Source: a virus. From it: a stretch of DNA of 61,925 nt. This document shows positions 3,381-57,476 of this stretch, one piece after another (the first letter of the stretch is position 1; the number at the start of each line of letters is the position of its first letter). A program made the position numbers and the translations under genes. Under the pieces are notes generated by a model, which was given only the letters and a program-made list of their open reading frames with translations, did no database searches and was not told the origin of the DNA. Location of the stretch: the IMG/VR virus record IMGVR_UViG_3300005338_000002, positions 1-61,925 of that record; one strand, given 5' to 3'.

Positions 3381-6300
3381 TTACCTCTTTGGCATGTACG
3401 GCGTCAGGTCCTTAGTGAGCCTGGCGTTTTCTTGGGGTGTGAGCTTGCCTTTGCGCTGCGCCGATCGCATGAGGGCCGCGAGAGCGGGCGCAAGCATCCT
3501 CCGATCCGCTTCCGTGGCGTCGTGCTCGAATATATCGGCTGCTGCGGTGATGTCCTTCGAGCCGAGTGCGCCGAACTTGGCGACAACCGGCGGCTCGTTG
3601 GCATCCTGTGCCAAGAACCGGACATTCGCCTGTGTGAGAAGCCCGGTATCGATGTCGTGGGCAAGCCGCTTGCCGAGTTCGCTTTTCGGATCAAGCGGCT
3701 TGCTGCCAAGAGCCTTCACCATCGGCATCAATGCTCGCCGTTCGGCGTATGATGCTCTGTCAGCATCGGTAAAGGTGCCGCCTGGAGATGGCCCAAGGCG
3801 ACGCGCTATAGCAGCCTCAAGCCTGGATGGGCGGTGCACACTCGACATCGGCACTTCCCGGAAGAATCCCGGCTGCGGGTAAGGATGGCCGGGTCGGTTA
3901 GGATCGGACGTAAGCGGTAGGTCCTCACGGTATCCCGGCTGTGCATTCTTGATGTAGTCGGCAAGCGTCTGTTTAGAGCGGATACCCTTCGATGGATCGG
4001 TCAGAGCGGCAGTCTGCGAGAGGAAGGCGCTGAACGGCTTGTGCATGGACACCACGCCCGCCTCAGCCCTCGCGGCCTTCCGTGGGTCCTCCCCAGTGAA
4101 TATATTCGCTGCCGTTTGGGCGTTCTCATTGATCCGGGTGTACGGGTTGTCGGCAAACGGCTCAAATAGCTTGCCTGCGGCCTCGCCAGCAGTAGGCGCA
4201 TCATGCGCCTTAAACCGATCGTAGATTTCCCCGGCGATGGCCCCGGTGTTCAGCAGGCCACCGACATTCCCGTATTGCCCCACGTCCCACTTTTTTCCAC
4301 GGGCATTGATAGAGCCGTATTCACCATGAGCAGGATCAGGCGCGTTGGACTGCCCGGTTTGCTGCCGGTAGAATCCATACGCCATGATCCCGGCCCCGAC
4401 AAGGCCCCTCTCAAACACCTTCTGCCGGTAGGCGGCCACTTCGGCGGGAGTCGCCTCCGGGTGCATGTGAGCATAAAGTCGAGCGAGCATCGGGGCGCTG
4501 ATCGATCCCGTAGCCATCTCGATCTGCCGGCCAACGCTATTCATGGGAACGGACGCCACCGGGGCGATATTGGTACGGATCACCTTGCCGATCGGCCCCA
4601 GACGATCCAGTGATGTAAGCCACGCCGCCGCCCGGTTCGGATTCGTCTGCGTCTCTTCCCGAGCGAACCTGATAGCAGCCTCAGTCATGGCCGGAGTCGG
4701 GTTCAGGCGGGCATCAGCCACCGCGTTCCGATATGAGGTCCCTCTGAGCCCCTTCGCCTTCGCTGCCTTCTCCGCTTCGATGAACAGGCCCCGCTCGAAG
4801 TTGTACGTCTGCATCACATGGTAGATGGCCCCGTGAACACGCATTGGGATACGGTAGGGAGCCAATGCCCGGTGCATCAGAGGATCACGTGACGAGAGTT
4901 CGGTATGGATGGGGTCGCCCGGTGTGTGCAGAGCATCCTTGCCTGCCAGTTGCATGGCTAGCGGGCCGGACTTCATTAGTCGAATGGAATCCGGGACTGC
5001 GCGGACACCGGCCCTCAGAGCAGTTGCGGTTCCAAGGGCGCTAGATGCCGGGTTACGAACGAACCGGCGGAACTCCTCCGCGCTGATCGTCAGGTTATGA
5101 GCCCCGATGATCCGGCCGAGTGTCTGCAATCCCGACAGGATATTCGACCGCACAAAGTGCTGGTAGTTGTCACCGTCATCGGCAAGGTGCCGCATGATCG
5201 TATGGGCGATCCCGGCATAGTCGCCATCGTCCAGATTGCCGAGGTCGCGCACGGCGGCATCGTACTTGGCGGGATCGATTACGCCATCCACGCCTTTGAA
5301 GTGCTTGCCTAGAACGTCCTTGGCAAAGTCCTTCGGGGAATCGTAGCCAAGCCGCCCGGCCCGAGCATCCGCGATAACCGTCCGCATCTGCTTAATGATG
5401 GCGTGAGGATTGGGCTTCGGCTTGATCCCCCGGAACGCATCGACAGCCTGCGCGAACCTGCGGCCCTCAGCCGGTGTCAACGGCTCATTCGCCTCTAGCT
5501 TTGCAAGGGCGCTCTGCCCAACGGCATCACTGCCAAGATCAGCACGAACCGCCTTCGCGGCATCCGGGCCAACTCTCGCCCGCAGAGAATCGTCCACCAC
5601 CTGAGCGCCGGTGCGGGTGCGTGATGGTCGTGCGGGCCGGGGGCCGCGTGCGTCCTTGACGATCTGCCGGACAGTCGCCATCGCGCCCATCGTTGGCCTG
5701 AAGGACCGCGAGGACACGTTCTTGGCCCATGCGTCAGCGATGATCTGCATTTGTGCCGGAGTAAGCTCCCCGCCGTGGATCAGCTTGTCGAGGATGGTGT
5801 TCGAACCATCGGCATCCCGGATGGCGTCTACGAACTTGGACGCTCGCAACCGTGACCCGAGCCCGGCGGCGAGCTGGTCTACGAATACCGGCTTGACGGC
5901 CGCGCTCTGCTGCGCGGCCACGGCCTTGCCGAGTGCGCCCCGTGCATTGGCATAGAGAGCCTGCCAGTCGGCTACGCTTAGGTCCGCGCCGGTATCGGCC
6001 TTCATCTTACCGAGCCATGCCCCGAACTCACGCGCCCCGGCTTCCAAGTGGTAGATCGCCATCTTGGTTAGAGGGGCAAGCACGGAAGGATCGATCCCCG
6101 CCGACGCTCTACCCGCCGACTGCTTGAACCACTTGGCTACTTCACCCTTCAGCCCGTCGTAGTCAGCCTTCGTGACGATCCGGTTACGGCTGCCGTAGGA
6201 TTTACCCGCAGGCTTGGGCGCGTTCGTCTCCGCGAGCCGTGGGGCCTTCTGGATAGCACGCTGCGCGGCAACCGCCTTCTCGTTGTACGAAACGACGGAA

Positions 6301-9300
6301 TGGCCTTGCAGTAGTTGGCCGCCGCGCTGCGCTACCTCATCGGCGTGCTGCATGGCAAGCCGGTGGTTCTCGTTGGCGATGTCGGCGGATGCTTGGTTGG
6401 CGACGGAAGGAGTTTCGCGGTTGACCGCTTCGGCATCACTTGCTGCCTCGGCGTAGTGGTTCCGCAGGTTCCTGACCGCAAGCTGCCAGATTTTCGGCTC
6501 TACGCCCGTGGGGATTTCACCGGGCGGAATAGCTCTGAGGTCGTCAATAGACACGCCAAGGTCACGCGCGCCTTGGATGGCCTGAGCGTCAGTGAGAGCA
6601 GGCTTGCCGACGAGCCCGAGGCCATGGGCGGTTGCGGTGATCTTGGCCTTGGCGACGTCGGATGCCTGGATGCGGTCGAGGTTCGTGCTGCCGACCATGT
6701 TAGATGGCGCAACCGTTGCATTATCTGCAACAGTTGGAACCTGCCCATTTTCGGCCGTGTTTTTAACAGGTTCCGGGGATGCGTTAAGCGGGGCAACAGA
6801 TTCAGTGGTCAAGGATTCCTTGACAGGTGCCTTCCCGCCGAGTATGCGTCCGAACATCTGCCGCATCTCATCGGAGAGCCCTGCATCGATCGCCGAGCCC
6901 TTGATCCCACCGTAGATGTTCCCGAGCCATGCTTTGAACTTCTCAAAGACGGTACGCATCGGCACAGTCGGGAACTTTCCTTCGGCTAGGTACTGCTCAA
7001 ACCCCCGCGCGAACTTCTCTTCGTGCGAACGCTGCCAGTTGCCGTCCTTGACGCCGGCCCATGCCTCCGCTGCCTTCCGGTCGACATCGTTGAGCGTTCG
7101 GCGGAAGATATGGCCGAGTTCGTGGACAGCCGTGGAAACATCTGGATCCTTGAGAGCGTGAATTACCGCACGTCCGTCGTCAAGGAAGGAGACTGCGCCC
7201 TTCGGCCCTTGGAAGAGAGTATCGCCGAGTGCGGCATTCGCCTGGCGTGCGAGACGTGTTATGTCGGCATCAGAAGCGTTATCAGCGCCAAAGGTTCGGA
7301 TGTCTCCATGAGCGGGCTGCACCTCTACCGTGACATTCTGGCCTCGCCCTACCCTGCGCAATAGCCCTATCTGGTTAGGCGTCAACGCCCGCACGGGCTC
7401 GGCATATAGGATGTTGTTAACTGGATCGGCGTGGATGCGCAGCGCCCCGGAGCCCTCTTGGAACTGAATCATCCCATCGGTACCACTCTTGCCGCCGGTC
7501 AAGTCCTCGGGTAGTTGACGATGGTCAACAGTCCGTGCGCCACTCGCAAGATTGCCTTCATGCCTGCCAGAGAAATCAAGCATCTGGCCGTCAGGAGTTA
7601 CATAACCTGCCTCGCGAGGATCATTGGTGACACCGAAGTGCTTCTTGGCGGCATCGATGATCGTTGTCGGGCTTGGAATGTCCTGATGTAGCGCCCCCGA
7701 ACCCGATTCGCCCTGCGTCACACCCGCTACATACCGGCGATAGAACTCCGCAGGAGTCGAGTTATTCTCAACCGCCCACTGCTTCGCCCGTGCATCGAAC
7801 AGTGCAGATGATGCCGTCGCCTCATCGGGCGCAAGCCCCATATGCCGCTGAAGGGCCGCTGACATAGAGGCAGGCGAATTGACGAGGGTGAGGGCAGGCT
7901 TCGGAGCCACAGACGGCGCGCCGACGGTAGGTTCACCCTTGCCGTAGATCAGCTTGTCGATCTGGAGCCCTAGCGCGTTCTGGTTGGCATCTTCTACGAA
8001 TGCCGTCAGCCCATCAAAGGGAGCATTCGGATCACCCTCGCCGTGGGCCACCACATCGGCCCCACGCGGCGTTTCCACCACTGACGCGCCGTTCCGTGCG
8101 GCCACGTCACGAAGGACCGTCATCTCTTCCAACGACATCGGGCCGGGGCCTCCGCGTGGCGTCAGCGACATTACCGTATGGGGCGCTACGTTGCCCTGTG
8201 AGGCGATAGCAGAGCTTCGGCGGGCGGTGGCGTCAGAGATCGGTGGCTCTTTGCCCTGCGCCCTCAGAGACGCCGCAAGCGCATCCGGCAGGGCTTCATC
8301 GGCAGTCGGTGGATGCGTGTCTGATCCCCGGTAAGGCTTGCCCTGTGGCGGGCGCATGGTTACGGCGGGAGGCGTGGCGGCATCGTCAACAATCGGCTCA
8401 ACCTGACCCGGTGGCAACGGCTGATCATTCCGGGCCTGCAATCGAGCACGGACATTCGCGCCGGCCTGCGTTTCCGGCTTCATGGCTTGGATAGCGCGGG
8501 CGGTTTGCGCTTGACGCTGAATGTCAGAGGCCATCGGAGGGATAGCATCGGCGGCCGGAGGTGCTATAGGTTCAGGCGCGGGCGGCGGCACAGCCGGGAC
8601 TACTTCAGCAGGTGTCTGACCTCGTCGGTTTCGCAATGATGCGGCGGCTTCTGCGATCGACGGGGAGCCCGGCCGGAGCGGTATGCGCCCGAGCTGGTGC
8701 ATGGTGCCACCGGCCGCCACCCAATCTAGAAGCGCGTTGCCGGGATTGTTCGCCCACTGATCGGCAAAAGCTTTCCGGGCCGCCTTGTCGCCGGTTAGTG
8801 CCTTTGCGGCAAGGACGGGGCTGGCATTCGTGAGCCCACCGATGATCCCGTGGAGGGTGTCCATGTAGTTCTGCGCGGCGTATCGCCCTTCGGTATCCAC
8901 ACCACTACCAGGAGTTACAACCCCCTTGGCCGCTGCGCCGATAGTCTGAGCGCCGTGGATAGCAAGCCCTGCAAGCGACTTCGCGACATCGTACAATCCT
9001 GCCGGAAGGGCTGCCGCATTTGCGACAAGCCCGGCCGCTGCCGGTGAGTGCGTCAATCGCCCCTGCGCCACCCATTTGCGGGCCGATTCCCCAAAGTTGC
9101 GATCCGCCGAAGCAAGCCAATCCAAGTAAGTGGGATCGGTTGCGGCCCCATGACTGAAGCCGCCACCATGATTGATTCCCCTATCAATCGCCGCCATATC
9201 CTGCTGAGTGGCGTTAGGAGGCGCAACCCGACGGGCCGGTGGGCGGTATGGCACTCCCTCACCCGGCAACGGGAGATCGCTTTTGAATGACCCCGAAGGC

Positions 9301-22106: not shown

Positions 22107-23003
22107 CTACCATCCTGCGTATTGGCGGCGGATCGGGATACCGCCCTTAGTGTCCTTGGTGAGCCGGGAAGTCTGAGCCTCAAGAATGCCTTTGGCCCTC
22201 ACCCACTCCTGCTCCATGCCGGGGAGAAAGGCCGCGTACTCTACCGGGAACTGACGGCATCGGAGCACACACGCCCGCCAGCTTGCGGTTGGCAACGCCC
22301 GGTCAGGTAGCGGGAACAGGTCGCTCGGGTTAGGCCACGTATTGCCGGGCACTCCGAGCCCTTCAATAGAGATCCCGCCAGAGGACAGATTGCCGACACC
22401 ACCGGTAGATGATGCGGTTCCCACCGGCTCCTGCATCGTTGCTACGCCCCCAGCCACACTCACGATCTTGTTCGGGCCATTGATGAATCCGCTATCGACT
22501 ACCGTGTTCATATAGAGCGTGTAACCGACATCGGTACTGACGAACGGTCGCAGAACACTAGAGAACGAATAGGCGGTGGCGGCGACCAGGTCAGTGTAAG
22601 AGGCGATGAGCGATGAAGCGTTCGGAGTCGGGTAGAGCGCCACAATGTTCGTGCCCCGAGTGATGTACCACCGTGGTGATCCCGCAGGCTGATCCCGCCA
22701 ATTAGGGATTAGCTGCGTCAGATTTTCGGCCGTGATGACCCTCAGTGGTGTGCGCGTGCTGGTCGTGTCGGTCCAAAACGCATCCTCTATCTTGTCCACA
22801 TTCGGGGCTGTGTAGATCGGCTGATTTGCCACCGTTTCTATATCCACCGTCACCGCGAAGGAGTTAGTGGCCCTCGCGGTTTCATCGGCGGCATCGTTAA
22901 TGACGGCATCTAACAGGAATGTGTCCTGAGCGCCCACACTGCCGAGCGTTTCTCGGAACCGCCCTTGGATTAATTGCCGGAACTGCGTTCGTGTCATGCT
23001 CAT
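22107..23003 (-). CDS. Head-tail adaptor-like protein
   Basis: 298 residues. MTRTQFRQLIQGRFRETLG and LLDAVINDAADETARATNSF form the N-terminal helices of connector/adaptor proteins. The beta-rich centre has FWTDTTSTRTPLRVITAENLTQ and PRWYITRGTNIVALYPTP, typical of phage adaptor families, and a C-terminal helix lies around LPGMEQEWVRAKGILEAQ. Follows the glycosyltransferase pair. Confidence 0.65.
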   Translation of the reverse strand: MSMTRTQFRQLIQGRFRETLGSVGAQDTFLLDAVINDAADETARATNSFAVTVDIETVANQPIYTAPNVDKIEDAFWTDTTSTRTPLRVITAENLTQLIPNWRDQPAGSPRWYITRGTNIVALYPTPNASSLIASYTDLVAATAYSFSSVLRPFVSTDVGYTLYMNTVVDSGFINGPNKIVSVAGGVATMQEPVGTASSTGGVGNLSSGGISIEGLGVPGNTWPNPSDLFPLPDRALPTASWRACVLRCRQFPVEYAAFLPGMEQEWVRAKGILEAQTSRLTKDTKGGIPIRRQYAGW

Positions 23004-23009
23004 GTGTGG

Positions 23010-23741
23010 TTACTCGGCCGGGTGAGGATGCTCTGCGGCCCATCGCTGCATTCGGATTCGCCGGCCGATTGGAACGCCGTTGCCGTGGAACGCCGCAATA
23101 ACAGGCGCGGAGCAGTCCTGGTCGTGAACGCTGTTGTTCCACCGCCGGGGCAACACCACGAATCGCTCCTGCCACTCCGGGGTACAGGAGAGCGTTTCAT
23201 TGACCGCCCACTGATCGATATAAGACGGGTCACGCTCACAGGTAACGTGCCGTCCGTCCAGTTGCGCCACCGCGTACCCGATTCCGGCCGGGGCCGAAGG
23301 ACGGGCGTTGCGCAGGGCGAATACATGCTCAAGGAACGCTATGGCCCATTCATCACACCGCCAGTACATAGCCCCGGCGTTGAAGTGGATCGGCTCGCGG
23401 AACATCGACGGGTACGGATGAGCCGTCATCCCAAGCGAGGCCCACGCGGGCAGAGCATCGGCGAGCCCTACCGAGAAATCAGCAATGATCGTGTCGGCGT
23501 CAAGCCAAATCACATGAGAATACTTGCCTGACTTAACCGACTCTTGGATAAGGACGAGCTTTTCCCAGAATCCGACCCAATCCCCCTCGTGCATCGGCAG
23601 GGCTTGGTACTCGTAACCGTGCTGTTTGCAATAGGCGGCATGGCGGTCTTGGTGGTCCTCAAGCATTCCTGAAAAATCCGGTGTATCGGCGGCTTGCAGG
23701 ATCATCGGACGGGGCAAGATCAGAGGCCGCTTAGTTGCCAT
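23010..23741 (-). CDS. GT-A type glycosyltransferase (GT34-like)
   Basis: 243 residues. VIWLDADT (Asp81-Ala-Asp83) is the metal- and nucleotide-sugar-binding DxD motif; FNAGAMYW near residue 118 and WAVNETL are typical of the galactosyl/mannosyltransferase GMA12/MNN10-like fold, as is the final AFHGNG histidine. Predicted to move a sugar from a nucleotide donor in the cytoplasm. GGAGG ribosome site; overlaps the upstream glycosyltransferase by 11 bases. Its place between capsid and adaptor genes suggests virion glycosylation. Fold fairly sure, substrate unknown. Confidence 0.75.
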   Translation of the reverse strand: MATKRPLILPRPMILQAADTPDFSGMLEDHQDRHAAYCKQHGYEYQALPMHEGDWVGFWEKLVLIQESVKSGKYSHVIWLDADTIIADFSVGLADALPAWASLGMTAHPYPSMFREPIHFNAGAMYWRCDEWAIAFLEHVFALRNARPSAPAGIGYAVAQLDGRHVTCERDPSYIDQWAVNETLSCTPEWQERFVVLPRRWNNSVHDQDCSAPVIAAFHGNGVPIGRRIRMQRWAAEHPHPAE

Positions 23742-24981
23742 GACGCGCCTCCGTATCTACCACCGTCGCATTTGGGCTCTGTATACGGGCCTGCACGACA
23801 TTGAGTGCATGGCCCCAGTCTCCGGGCTTATGCTGCCGCGTCAGGGTCATGCTGGCATACCAGCATGTCACGTCAGACCGGTGGAACCATCGCCAATCGG
23901 CGTCATGCGGCAGAATCGTGTTGGTCGGAACGCCCATTGCCCCGGCGAGATGCGCCACGCTCGTGTCGATTGTCACCACACGCTCACATGAGCCAATCCG
24001 CAGAGCCGTTGCGAACATGTCGCCCGTGATCGGGTCGTGGTTGAATGGGTCCTCTTTATGCTGAAGCGAGACTATCTCGTAGCCATTATCAGCGAGCGCC
24101 TGACAGAAAGGCCCGAAGGTATTCCAGGGGATAGATCGCTTCGCCAGTGTATCGTTCAGTTGCAGGCCATTCCAACAAACTCCGATACGCTTCGGTGTTG
24201 GCGTCAGGGGCAGGTTGAGATATGGCCCCTCGGGCATCGACGGGTAGTCTGCGCCGAGCACATGGAGCAGCGACATGATGGACACCCATTCATCGCATGG
24301 AACTCCAAACCCACCTGCGGGCTGCATCTCCACCACCATATCAGCATCAGTACAAGCCGTCGCGAGCCGGATCAGCGGCCACGGTGCCTCAAGCACGATG
24401 AACGCACCACTCTTCTGCTTCAGCAACGGCAGGTAACGCCAGAGCCAAATGTGATCGCCGAGGCCCTGCTCTGCCGCCACAAACAGCGTACGGCCCGGTA
24501 TCGGTCGACCGTCCCACATCGGGCGTAGCGACGGGGCCGGGCGATTAAGATTAGGCGCTGCGGTACACCGTCGCCACTCCGCGTCGGCAAGCCCTTCGGC
24601 CCACCATTGCGGCTGAAGGTCGGCCCACTTCAAGGACGTAAATGACCTGTGCAGATGGATGAGGGCATGATCAGGATCGATCTGAACGGCGATGTTATAG
24701 AGCGTCTTTGCCTTACGCCACTCGCCGATCGCGTCGAGCGACATAGCCGCGCCCATGTATACCATCGCGTCCTGCCGAGGCTCACGGGCGAGAACGTAGG
24801 AATAAGCCCCTATGGCCTTCTCGTGCTCACTGTTAGCCGCGTAGTACCCCGCTAGTTGCCTCCATCCGGTCATCTCTTCCGGGTTTTCACGGAGACATTG
24901 TTCGGTTAGCACAATGCAAGCGTCTAAATCTTTTGCATCTACGGCCGCCTGAATCGCCCGTTGCTGCTGTTCAAAATCCAT
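23731..24981 (-). CDS. TPR glycosyltransferase (OGT/GT9-like)
   Basis: 416 residues from ATG 24981. Residues 1-140 form tetratricopeptide repeats (KAIGAYSYVLAREPRQDAMV, KAKTLYNIAVQIDPDHALIH). The catalytic part has EQGLGDHIWLWRYLPLL, GVCWNGLQLNDTLAKRSIPW and the C-terminal TIDTSVAHLAGAMGVPTNTI with DADWRWFHRSDVTCWY, the signature of bacterial TPR transferases related to O-GlcNAc transferase. TPRs recognise a protein acceptor, so a capsid or tail protein is a likely target. A hairpin pair and a terminator precede the start, which should lower its expression relative to capsid. Confidence 0.75.
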   Translation of the reverse strand: MDFEQQQRAIQAAVDAKDLDACIVLTEQCLRENPEEMTGWRQLAGYYAANSEHEKAIGAYSYVLAREPRQDAMVYMGAAMSLDAIGEWRKAKTLYNIAVQIDPDHALIHLHRSFTSLKWADLQPQWWAEGLADAEWRRCTAAPNLNRPAPSLRPMWDGRPIPGRTLFVAAEQGLGDHIWLWRYLPLLKQKSGAFIVLEAPWPLIRLATACTDADMVVEMQPAGGFGVPCDEWVSIMSLLHVLGADYPSMPEGPYLNLPLTPTPKRIGVCWNGLQLNDTLAKRSIPWNTFGPFCQALADNGYEIVSLQHKEDPFNHDPITGDMFATALRIGSCERVVTIDTSVAHLAGAMGVPTNTILPHDADWRWFHRSDVTCWYASMTLTRQHKPGDWGHALNVVQARIQSPNATVVDTEARHGN

Positions 24982-24987
24982 AAGACT

Positions 24988-25008
24988 GCACGCTCCCTTC
25001 AAGCGTGC
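24988..25008 (-). promoter_or_regulatory. Hairpin at the ribosome site of the TPR glycosyltransferase
   Basis: Arms 24988-24994 and 25002-25008 pair over 7 bases. In the leftward mRNA the loop is UGAAGGG, and with the next bases it contains an AAGGGAG ribosome-like site. An AAGGAG lies just 5' of the hairpin and would be brought near the ATG if the hairpin forms. The loop is the exact complement of the loop of the hairpin at 25024-25052. Confidence 0.6.
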
Positions 25009-25023
25009 TCCTTCAAATGAGAA

Positions 25024-25052
25024 CGGCAGGGGAGTGAAGGGCTCCCCTGCCG
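25024..25052 (-). terminator. Intrinsic-type terminator after the capsid genes
   Basis: An 11-bp perfect stem (arms 25024-25034 and 25042-25052) with loop CCCUUCA in the leftward RNA, followed by UUCUCAUUU. It lies 22 bases after the stop of the capsid-associated gene and should reduce read-through into the glycosyltransferases. Confidence 0.7.
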
Positions 25053-25073: not shown

Positions 25074-25454
25074 CTAGCTCGTCAGCGCAATGTTCACGCC
25101 GCTGGCGGTGATGCCGGAATCCGGCAGGACCTGAGCGCGGACCCACTCATACGGGTTGTAGAAGCGGGCGATAACGCTGATCGGGGTCGTGGTGGACGCC
25201 GAAGCAAAGACGTAGAGGAACGTCTCCGTAACCAAGGTCGTATTCGTGAAGAGGCTTTCAGTGCTACCCTGGAACACCAGAGTGATGTTCTTGGCGAGGG
25301 TGGCATTCGCGTTCACGACAGAACCGAAGTTGACAGTCCACCGATTTCCACGCGGGGGCGATCCCGGCGTGGTGAGCTGGTCGTACGCCGTGGATGACGT
25401 TGAGGCTGAGATGGTCGAGTTCGTAAAGAGCTGGACCAGGTAATCACGTGCCAT
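25074..25454 (-). CDS. Capsid-associated (decoration-like) protein
   Basis: 126 residues, beta-rich, starting MARDYLVQLFTNSTISASTS. It has a strong AAAGGAG ribosome site and lies 18 bases after the major capsid gene, with a terminator right after it. Gene order (capsid, small beta-rich protein) and expression signals suggest a decoration or minor head protein. Serine/threonine-rich, so it could be an acceptor for the glycosyltransferases encoded next. No specific family recognised. Confidence 0.5.
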   Translation of the reverse strand: MARDYLVQLFTNSTISASTSSTAYDQLTTPGSPPRGNRWTVNFGSVVNANATLAKNITLVFQGSTESLFTNTTLVTETFLYVFASASTTTPISVIARFYNPYEWVRAQVLPDSGITASGVNIALTS

Positions 25455-25472: not shown

Positions 25473-26498
25473 CTACGCGATCTTGATACCGTACATCCGG
25501 GCGAAGGACCGGTTGTTCGGAATCCAGAGGCCAACGCCCCAGTCAACCACCCAGTTGAACCGTACGAGGTTCGTGGGGTCGAGCCCGGCCGCCTGCACGC
25601 GCAAGGGCTCGGGCTGCCATCCGCAGAAGGTTTCCGTGCCGTAGTTGACGGCGTAGATCGAGGTGTAACCCGTTCCACCGTCGTTACCGCTGCTGTCCTC
25701 GTTCTGCGAGATGATGCGGGTGGTCTGGTCGGCCTTGCGGCCAACGTCGCGGAGCTTTGCGCCACGGAACGTGCGGATCTTGCGATCGAACGCATCCGTG
25801 GTAGTGTCGAAGCCCGCGCCTGGACCGGCTTGGCGAACGGCATACGCAAACGCACGCCGCATGTAGTCGTTCATGTAGAGAACGACGTTATCGCCATCCT
25901 CGGCCATGATGAAGTCGAGAAGCTGCTCGACGTAGCGGAGAAAGGCATTCGCCGTAGCCGCCGTGATACCGGTCGGGCTCAGGTCCGCGCCGGTGGCGGC
26001 GAACTTGAGTTCCGTGGGCATTCCGTAAGCGCCGGGGTTATCCAGCCGGGTCCGCAGTCCTGCGAAGGCGTCGAGGTTGCCGCCCGAGTTGTGGGCGTTG
26101 TTGATGAACGTGTAGTTGAAGTTGTATTCGAACGCTGCGAAGAACAACTTGGACTGCACGTCGATAGGCGGGCTGATCGCGTTGGTGTCGCGATTGATCC
26201 GCTTATCGATCTGGAACTGCGCCCGGACCAGGAACATCCGCTCGGAGTAGTCGGTCAGCTTGCCGATGACTACGGTCGGGTCCTGATTGACGGCGGTCCA
26301 GATGTTCGTCATGCTCGGCAGGGCGCTGTTCTGGTCCATGCGCGCGCCGAGCATAATCAAGGTGTCCTTCGTTGCGAGAGGGATATCCTTGACGATATTC
26401 TTCGTCCGGTAGAGAGAGTCCGTAAACTTCTCCACCACCGGATCATTGCTCTGTGTGGCGTAGACATCGAGTGTCATCGCCTGTGGTGAGAATGCCAT
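25473..26498 (-). CDS. Major capsid protein
   Basis: 341 residues. Features match HK97-fold coats of podo- and siphoviruses: an N-terminal region with VVEKFTDSLYRTKNIVKDI, a long spine-helix region around NAFLRYVEQLLDFIMAEDGD, VLYMNDYMRRAFAYAVRQAG, and a C-terminal beta region (IYAVNYGTETFCGWQPEPLRVQ ... WVVDWGVGLWIPNNRSFARM). Preceded by a scaffold gene and followed by a small head protein, the usual capsid order. Ends with TAG. Confidence 0.8.
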   Translation of the reverse strand: MAFSPQAMTLDVYATQSNDPVVEKFTDSLYRTKNIVKDIPLATKDTLIMLGARMDQNSALPSMTNIWTAVNQDPTVVIGKLTDYSERMFLVRAQFQIDKRINRDTNAISPPIDVQSKLFFAAFEYNFNYTFINNAHNSGGNLDAFAGLRTRLDNPGAYGMPTELKFAATGADLSPTGITAATANAFLRYVEQLLDFIMAEDGDNVVLYMNDYMRRAFAYAVRQAGPGAGFDTTTDAFDRKIRTFRGAKLRDVGRKADQTTRIISQNEDSSGNDGGTGYTSIYAVNYGTETFCGWQPEPLRVQAAGLDPTNLVRFNWVVDWGVGLWIPNNRSFARMYGIKIA

Positions 26499-56754: not shown

Positions 56755-57300
56755 ATGGACCGACTGAGTGACGAACGTCTCGGGGAGTTGGAGACAGTGG
56801 CGAAGGCAACGACACTGCAAGGCCCATGGGAGCACCATACTTACCACGGCACATTCGAAATGGTGCAACCTGTTCTCTTTGAAGTCCCGAAGAGAACCCC
56901 GTTCGCTATCGAGCGAGACGGCAAGTGGTACCTCGACGGCCATCCGATGAACGTTTTCAAATGCGCGGCTGGCGATTGGGAGCCCGCGCCGGCCGATGCG
57001 GACTTTATCGCCGCCTTCGACCCGTCAACCGCCATCGCCATTCTCTCGGAGTTGCGGCGGGCGAGAGCAGAAGGGCAGGCGATTAAGGATCAGTATAACG
57101 AAGTCGAAGGGGCTGTAATCGACCTCCTGCACTGCATGGGCTTCGACACCAACCCCTACGACTCCGACAGCTACGACCTACTGAGCATGCTCGATGACGC
57201 AAAGCAGCACGCCCTTAAGTTGCGGCGTATGGCTGAGAAGGCCGGAGTGGTATTCGAGGGGTTTGGGCCACTACCGGAGAAGGCTGAGCCAGAGGCATGA
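56755..57300 (+). CDS. Ead/Ea22-like early phage protein
   Basis: 181 residues from ATG 56755 (GAGGAA upstream). DADFIAAFDPSTAIAILSEL is the recurrent motif of Ead/Ea22-type proteins; a C-terminal coiled coil (DDAKQHALKLRRMAEKAG) follows. These early proteins are variable and of unknown role. Ends in an ATGA overlap. Confidence 0.6.
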   Translation: MDRLSDERLGELETVAKATTLQGPWEHHTYHGTFEMVQPVLFEVPKRTPFAIERDGKWYLDGHPMNVFKCAAGDWEPAPADADFIAAFDPSTAIAILSELRRARAEGQAIKDQYNEVEGAVIDLLHCMGFDTNPYDSDSYDLLSMLDDAKQHALKLRRMAEKAGVVFEGFGPLPEKAEPEA

Positions 57301-57476
57301 ACATAGCCATCGGCGGCCTGATGCGGTGCTGCATCGAGACGATCAAGCGCCGGGACGGTGAGTTTCCCGAAGGCGAGAACGCCCGCATCAAATGCGACTA
57401 CTGCCCGTCGCATTTGATGCGAGAGGGCGGGACTTGGAGATGGGAGCGGAAGGAGGACGAGGATGGCACTGAGTAA
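57297..57476 (+). CDS. Small zinc-type protein
   Basis: 59 residues (MNIAIGGLMRCCIETIKRRD...). C11-C12 and C33-x2-C36 with WRWERKEDEDGTE form a compact zinc knuckle of a type frequent in phage early regions. ATGA overlap at its start. Confidence 0.6.
   Translation: MNIAIGGLMRCCIETIKRRDGEFPEGENARIKCDYCPSHLMREGGTWRWERKEDEDGTE

Follow-up and report, generated by a model that had tools for sequence, protein, structure and literature searches.

The window, the whole stretch of 61,925 nt that was analysed, is a virus record for which the collections searched contained no close relative, and the two hairpins and the surrounding late genes lie on its minus strand. The late genes follow the order portal, a 309-aa gene, the major capsid protein (25473–26498), a 126-aa gene (25074–25454), a two-hairpin leader, a TPR-containing, likely glycosyltransferase gene (23731–24981, with its ATG at 24981), a second glycosyltransferase-like gene (23010–23741; Pfam Glyco_transf_34) and an SU10-type adaptor (22107–23003). 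The gap preceding the TPR gene measures 92 nt and comprises hairpin 1, a linker with UUUGAAGGAG, hairpin 2, AGUCUU and AUG. From the gene order, we infer that both hairpins are carried on one transcript. A comparison of the region with phage DNA records yielded zero matches.

The product of the gene downstream of the leader contains TPR repeats (Pfam TPR_14, E 6.7e-07), with a TPR helix predicted to start at residue 3 from the ATG. NCBIfam gave a weak match to heptosyltransferase I that covered a short C-terminal motif. An AlphaFold model was obtained at a pLDDT of 85.6, and the closest PDB structures are O-GlcNAc transferases and SPINDLY, although at low whole-model TM-scores of approximately 0.2–0.35. 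The product is likely a glycosyltransferase. An earlier note on this DNA, made from the sequence alone, proposed fine control of virion glycosylation; this control is unsupported, and support for the gene product extends only to a TPR domain and a likely glycosyltransferase fold.

Hairpin 1 (25024–25052, minus strand), which reads CGGCAGGGGAG-CCCTTCA-CTCCCCTGCCG from 25052 to 25024, has a perfect 11-bp stem, or 12 bp when one G-U pair is counted (25053–25023), an energy of -24.8 kcal/mol and the loop CCCUUCA at 25041–25035. By stem length, it ranks second among the hairpins listed for the window. The earlier note describes it as a terminator; its stem is strong, but its U tail, UUCUCAUUU, is interrupted and poor. 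Terminator-like sites in the region did not exceed the count in shuffled sequences, and the leader had no Rfam family match at E ≤ 1. Hairpin 1 was judged to be a read-through attenuator or a 3′-end hairpin.

A similar arrangement recurs elsewhere. In the same phage, a hairpin and tail running into UUUGAA(A)GG also precede the capsid gene, and the linker block CAUUUGAAGG closely resembles the block CAUUUGAAAGG before that gene, which likewise stands behind a hairpin. In many of the relatives L032–L056, a canonical terminator leads straight into UUUUUUGAAAGGA. The succession of hairpin, tail and Shine–Dalgarno (SD) sequence thus looks like the usual unit in these phages. Because this unit recurs before the capsid gene and in L032–L056, hairpin 1 and the upstream SD of the leader look like the ancestral part, with hairpin 2 as an addition. 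Many of the same relatives carry near-identical GGGAGGGGAAACCCTCCC-TTTTTT terminators in the gap past the gene following the capsid gene, and the U tail of these terminators directly enters the SD of the next gene, GAAAGGA. The heptamer TTGAAGG occurs in 10 copies on the minus strand of the window versus 1 on the plus strand, consistent with its use as an SD block.

Hairpin 2 (24988–25008, minus strand; GCACGCT-TGAAGGG-AGCGTGC) has a 7-bp stem, an energy of -12.3 kcal/mol and the loop UGAAGGG, which carries a second SD-like sequence, GAAGGGAG. RNAfold closes this hairpin with a U-G pair, leaving a predicted free loop of 5 nt (GAAGG). The leader fold contains both hairpins and was matched in stability by 1 of 200 shuffles (z -3.4). 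The principal SD candidate, AAGGAG (25008–25013, minus strand), lies 26 nt from the ATG, a distance reduced to approximately 6 nt with hairpin 2 folded, and 5 nt from a TTG (25000–25002, minus strand) at loop 2 that is in frame with the gene. The copy in loop 2 sits 11 nt from the ATG and is usable on paper as an SD. Pairing with the anti-SD is marginally stronger for the upstream SD (-8.0 versus -7.6). In the region 24988–25016 (minus strand), the SD block is repeated imperfectly in tandem: since TTGAAGG-AGCACGC (25016–25003) is directly adjoined by TTGAAGGGAGCGTGC (25002–24988), hairpin 2 probably originated through imperfect duplication of this block, which would account for the second SD copy in its loop. 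TRF reported no array at this repeat, which is short and imperfect.

The loops CCCUUCA and UGAAGGG are exact reverse complements (7/7), so that the complementarity reported in the earlier note, which gives no strand, is confirmed. Both loops are mostly single-stranded in the predicted fold, and the loop–loop duplex reaches -9.5 kcal/mol in isolation. To place this match against chance, adjacent hairpin pairs were defined by stems of at least 6 bp, loops of 5–9 nt and a distance within 150 nt. The window holds 17 such pairs, one of which has a 7-nt loop match, whereas base composition predicts a rate of approximately 8e-5 per pair. Twelve Markov genomes contained zero loop matches of at least 5 nt among stems of at least 7 bp, and other viral loci, 1.51 Mb in total, held 288 adjacent pairs, in which no loop match was longer than 4 nt. 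Shuffling both loops with their composition kept is the most conservative null, given that loop 2 is rich in purines, as SD sequences are, and loop 1 in pyrimidines; here P was 0.0095, or about 1%. As loop 2 is SD-like, what is actually coincidental is the anti-SD character of loop 1. The 7/7 match is beyond chance, with modest multiplicity. The two loops were also considered as arms of one longer inverted repeat, and this was rejected, as pairing ends outside the 7 nt.

Searches with the capsid protein found relatives at approximately 50% identity or lower, whereas searches that relied solely on its glycosyltransferase, portal and terminase proteins gave no confirmed relative, and none was found among the genome contigs searched. 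Among relatives whose leaders could be read, L003 (50%) and L004 (49%) are the nearest. L004 has a 15-bp hairpin with the loop AAUAGC but lacks a second one. The layout in L003 is similar to that of the window in having two hairpins: a branched hairpin past its 132-aa gene and a GAGGAG-bearing hairpin right before the next start. Its terminator-side loop UUCCUC can pair with GAGG over 4 nt; this is not evidence by itself, since 14 of the 288 unrelated pairs also reach 4 nt. In L006/G004, a similar cassette comprises a TPR-glycosyltransferase and a second glycosyltransferase and stands before an adaptor-like gene, with an FkbM-type methyltransferase gene ahead. There the post-capsid hairpin has the loop ACUUAAAA, and the TPR gene has no hairpin-2-like element, its GTG overlapping a TAG behind dense coding-like sequence. 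The accessory genes found between the 126-aa gene and the adaptor thus vary from phage to phage, and the kissing loops do not belong to the glycosyltransferase cassette as such. No comparable hairpin pair was found in the leaders of distant TPR-glycosyltransferase genes, whose start codons were guessed. The loop pair is not conserved in relatives, being absent from L004 and L006/G004, with a match of only 4 nt in L003. The earlier note held that relatives in which one loop changes without the other would speak against the contact; this is seen in part, the nearest relatives lacking the pair or showing 4 nt only, but they are too distant for a true covariation test.

A two-gene cassette (TPR-glycosyltransferase, then Glyco_transf_34-like) occupies the same position between the capsid block and the adaptor in two distant phages, that of the window (23010–24981) and L061 (827–2706), the match between the second genes having been recognised by reading the proteins. 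In L001, a GIY-YIG homing endonuclease-like frame, seen by eye, lies in this slot on the opposite strand (5780–6496, minus strand).

Split ribosome-binding sites are known from phage T4, in which a hairpin separates the AUG from a remote SD and shortens the spacing from 22 to 5 nt in gene 38 and from 27 to 11 nt in gene 25 (PMC3014915). Similarly, a good SD lies too far from the ATG in the present phage, and a stable hairpin is predicted to fold between them and to leave a distance within the range of 5–11 nt seen in T4. The difference is that the loop in the present phage bears a second SD-like sequence and complements the loop of an upstream hairpin. Hairpin 2 thus probably bridges AAGGAG to the ATG in the manner of the T4 genes. 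This part of the earlier note is favoured by the spacing in the predicted fold and by the T4 precedent, but the SD in the loop and the TTG would also be usable on paper.

The best explanation, to which we assign a probability of roughly 45%, combines an attenuating hairpin 1 with a ribosome site split by hairpin 2 and an optional pairing of the loops. Hairpin 1 would stand where the highly expressed capsid block ends, so that the glycosyltransferase cassette would receive only a share of the transcription or only a stabilised 3′ end. Hairpin 2, probably born by duplication of the SD block, would fold out the 20-nt spacer between AAGGAG and the ATG. Loop 1 may pair with either SD copy, kissing the one in loop 2 over 7 bp or forming a 6-bp pseudoknot with the upstream one, which would slightly reduce initiation on the cassette. 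The strong leader fold with its two stable hairpins, the slightly better anti-SD pairing of the upstream SD, the recurrence of the hairpin–tail–SD unit, the SD-bearing hairpin just ahead of the next start in L003, the T4 precedent and a loop match above chance all favour this explanation. However, the SD in loop 2 could serve the ATG directly, hairpin 1 has a poor U tail, and the loop match is missing or short in the relatives. Most likely, the mechanism is ordinary: a strong post-capsid hairpin, together with a ribosome site that has either a spacing hairpin or two starts. Contact between the kissing loops, seen in the present phage only, is physically plausible, its function hypothetical.

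A realistic though tentative alternative is coincidence: hairpin 1 would be nothing more than a hairpin, hairpin 2 would have arisen incidentally from the SD duplication, and the loop match would have no effect. The lack of conservation fits this reading, as do the value of about 1% under the strictest null and the selection of the finding out of the whole window; nevertheless, not one of the 288 real adjacent hairpin pairs reaches even 5 nt. If the match has no effect, it illustrates how easily a loop that bears an SD can seem regulatory.

It is rather unlikely that the kissing of the loops in cis is a selected device that masks the SD in loop 2 or keeps the leader compact, thereby tuning the glycosyltransferase genes. 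The full complementarity is an outlier against all nulls, the loops are open in the fold with a favourable duplex, and the 15-nt linker appears sufficient to join stacked stems. However, relatives do not conserve the pair, and the U-G pair shortens loop 2 in the predicted fold. Furthermore, CCCTTCA and TTGAAGGGA co-occur in viral contigs at no fewer than 125 sites, and among the matches listed none has both stems of at least 6 bp. The kissing pair proposed in the earlier note stands as a pairing that can form, but not as one that is conserved. The leader shares with intramolecular kissing-loop regulators two stable hairpins with complementary loops, presumably in one transcript. The kissing complexes of ColE1 RNA I and RNA II also involve fully complementary 7-nt loops, although on two separate molecules, whereas both loops lie in one leader here. 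In the repZ leader of IncI-alpha/IncB plasmids, which Asano and Mizobuchi (1998, cited in PMC10724649) are said to have described, an upstream hairpin loop likewise pairs in cis with sequence close to where ribosomes bind for the following gene. There, the pseudoknot reportedly turns repZ on, and an antisense RNA counteracts it, whereas no antisense RNA, leader peptide or sequence relation is known for the present leader. A broader and doubtful proposal is that of a cis kissing-loop switch in phage late mRNA, in which the loop of the hairpin at the end of the capsid block would be a built-in anti-SD for the ribosome hairpin of the next gene, setting both read-through and translation of the glycosyltransferase cassette. 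If real, a terminator or attenuator hairpin would also control translation by means of its loop, a compact way for phages to balance capsid against accessory proteins.

Translation may instead begin at the in-frame TTG at 25002, with AAGGAG at an ideal spacing of 5 nt and GAAGGGAG serving the ATG as a second start; we consider this unlikely. The earlier note missed this TTG in its reading of the ribosome site. The TTG fits exactly in frame and spacing, no stop closes the frame ahead of the ATG at 24981, and the two SD copies would be explained without bridging. Under the TTG reading, hairpin 2 would cover or contain the first start codon, and bridging would be unnecessary. Nonetheless, TTG is a weak start codon and lies inside hairpin 2, and the seven added residues bring nothing recognisable, the TPR helix starting close behind the ATG.

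Finally, an H-type pseudoknot in which loop 1 pairs with UGAAGG of the linker (25015–25010) and hides the main SD is improbable: the 6-nt complementarity (-6.2 kcal/mol in isolation) makes hairpin 1 the sole one of 18 strong minus-strand hairpins (loop of at least 6 nt) with a 6-nt downstream match within 60 nt, a count that pools the linker and loop 2 copies of UGAAGG, but the duplex is weaker than the loop–loop pairing, the geometry is tight across the 12-bp stem, and the problems of chance and conservation are shared.

Elsewhere in the window, the longest hairpin listed is a perfect 15-bp inverted repeat, CGCATCAAATGCGAC-TACTGCCC-GTCGCATTTGATGCG (57386–57423, plus strand), which sits within a short open frame that starts from an ATG at 57298 and bears a CxxC motif.
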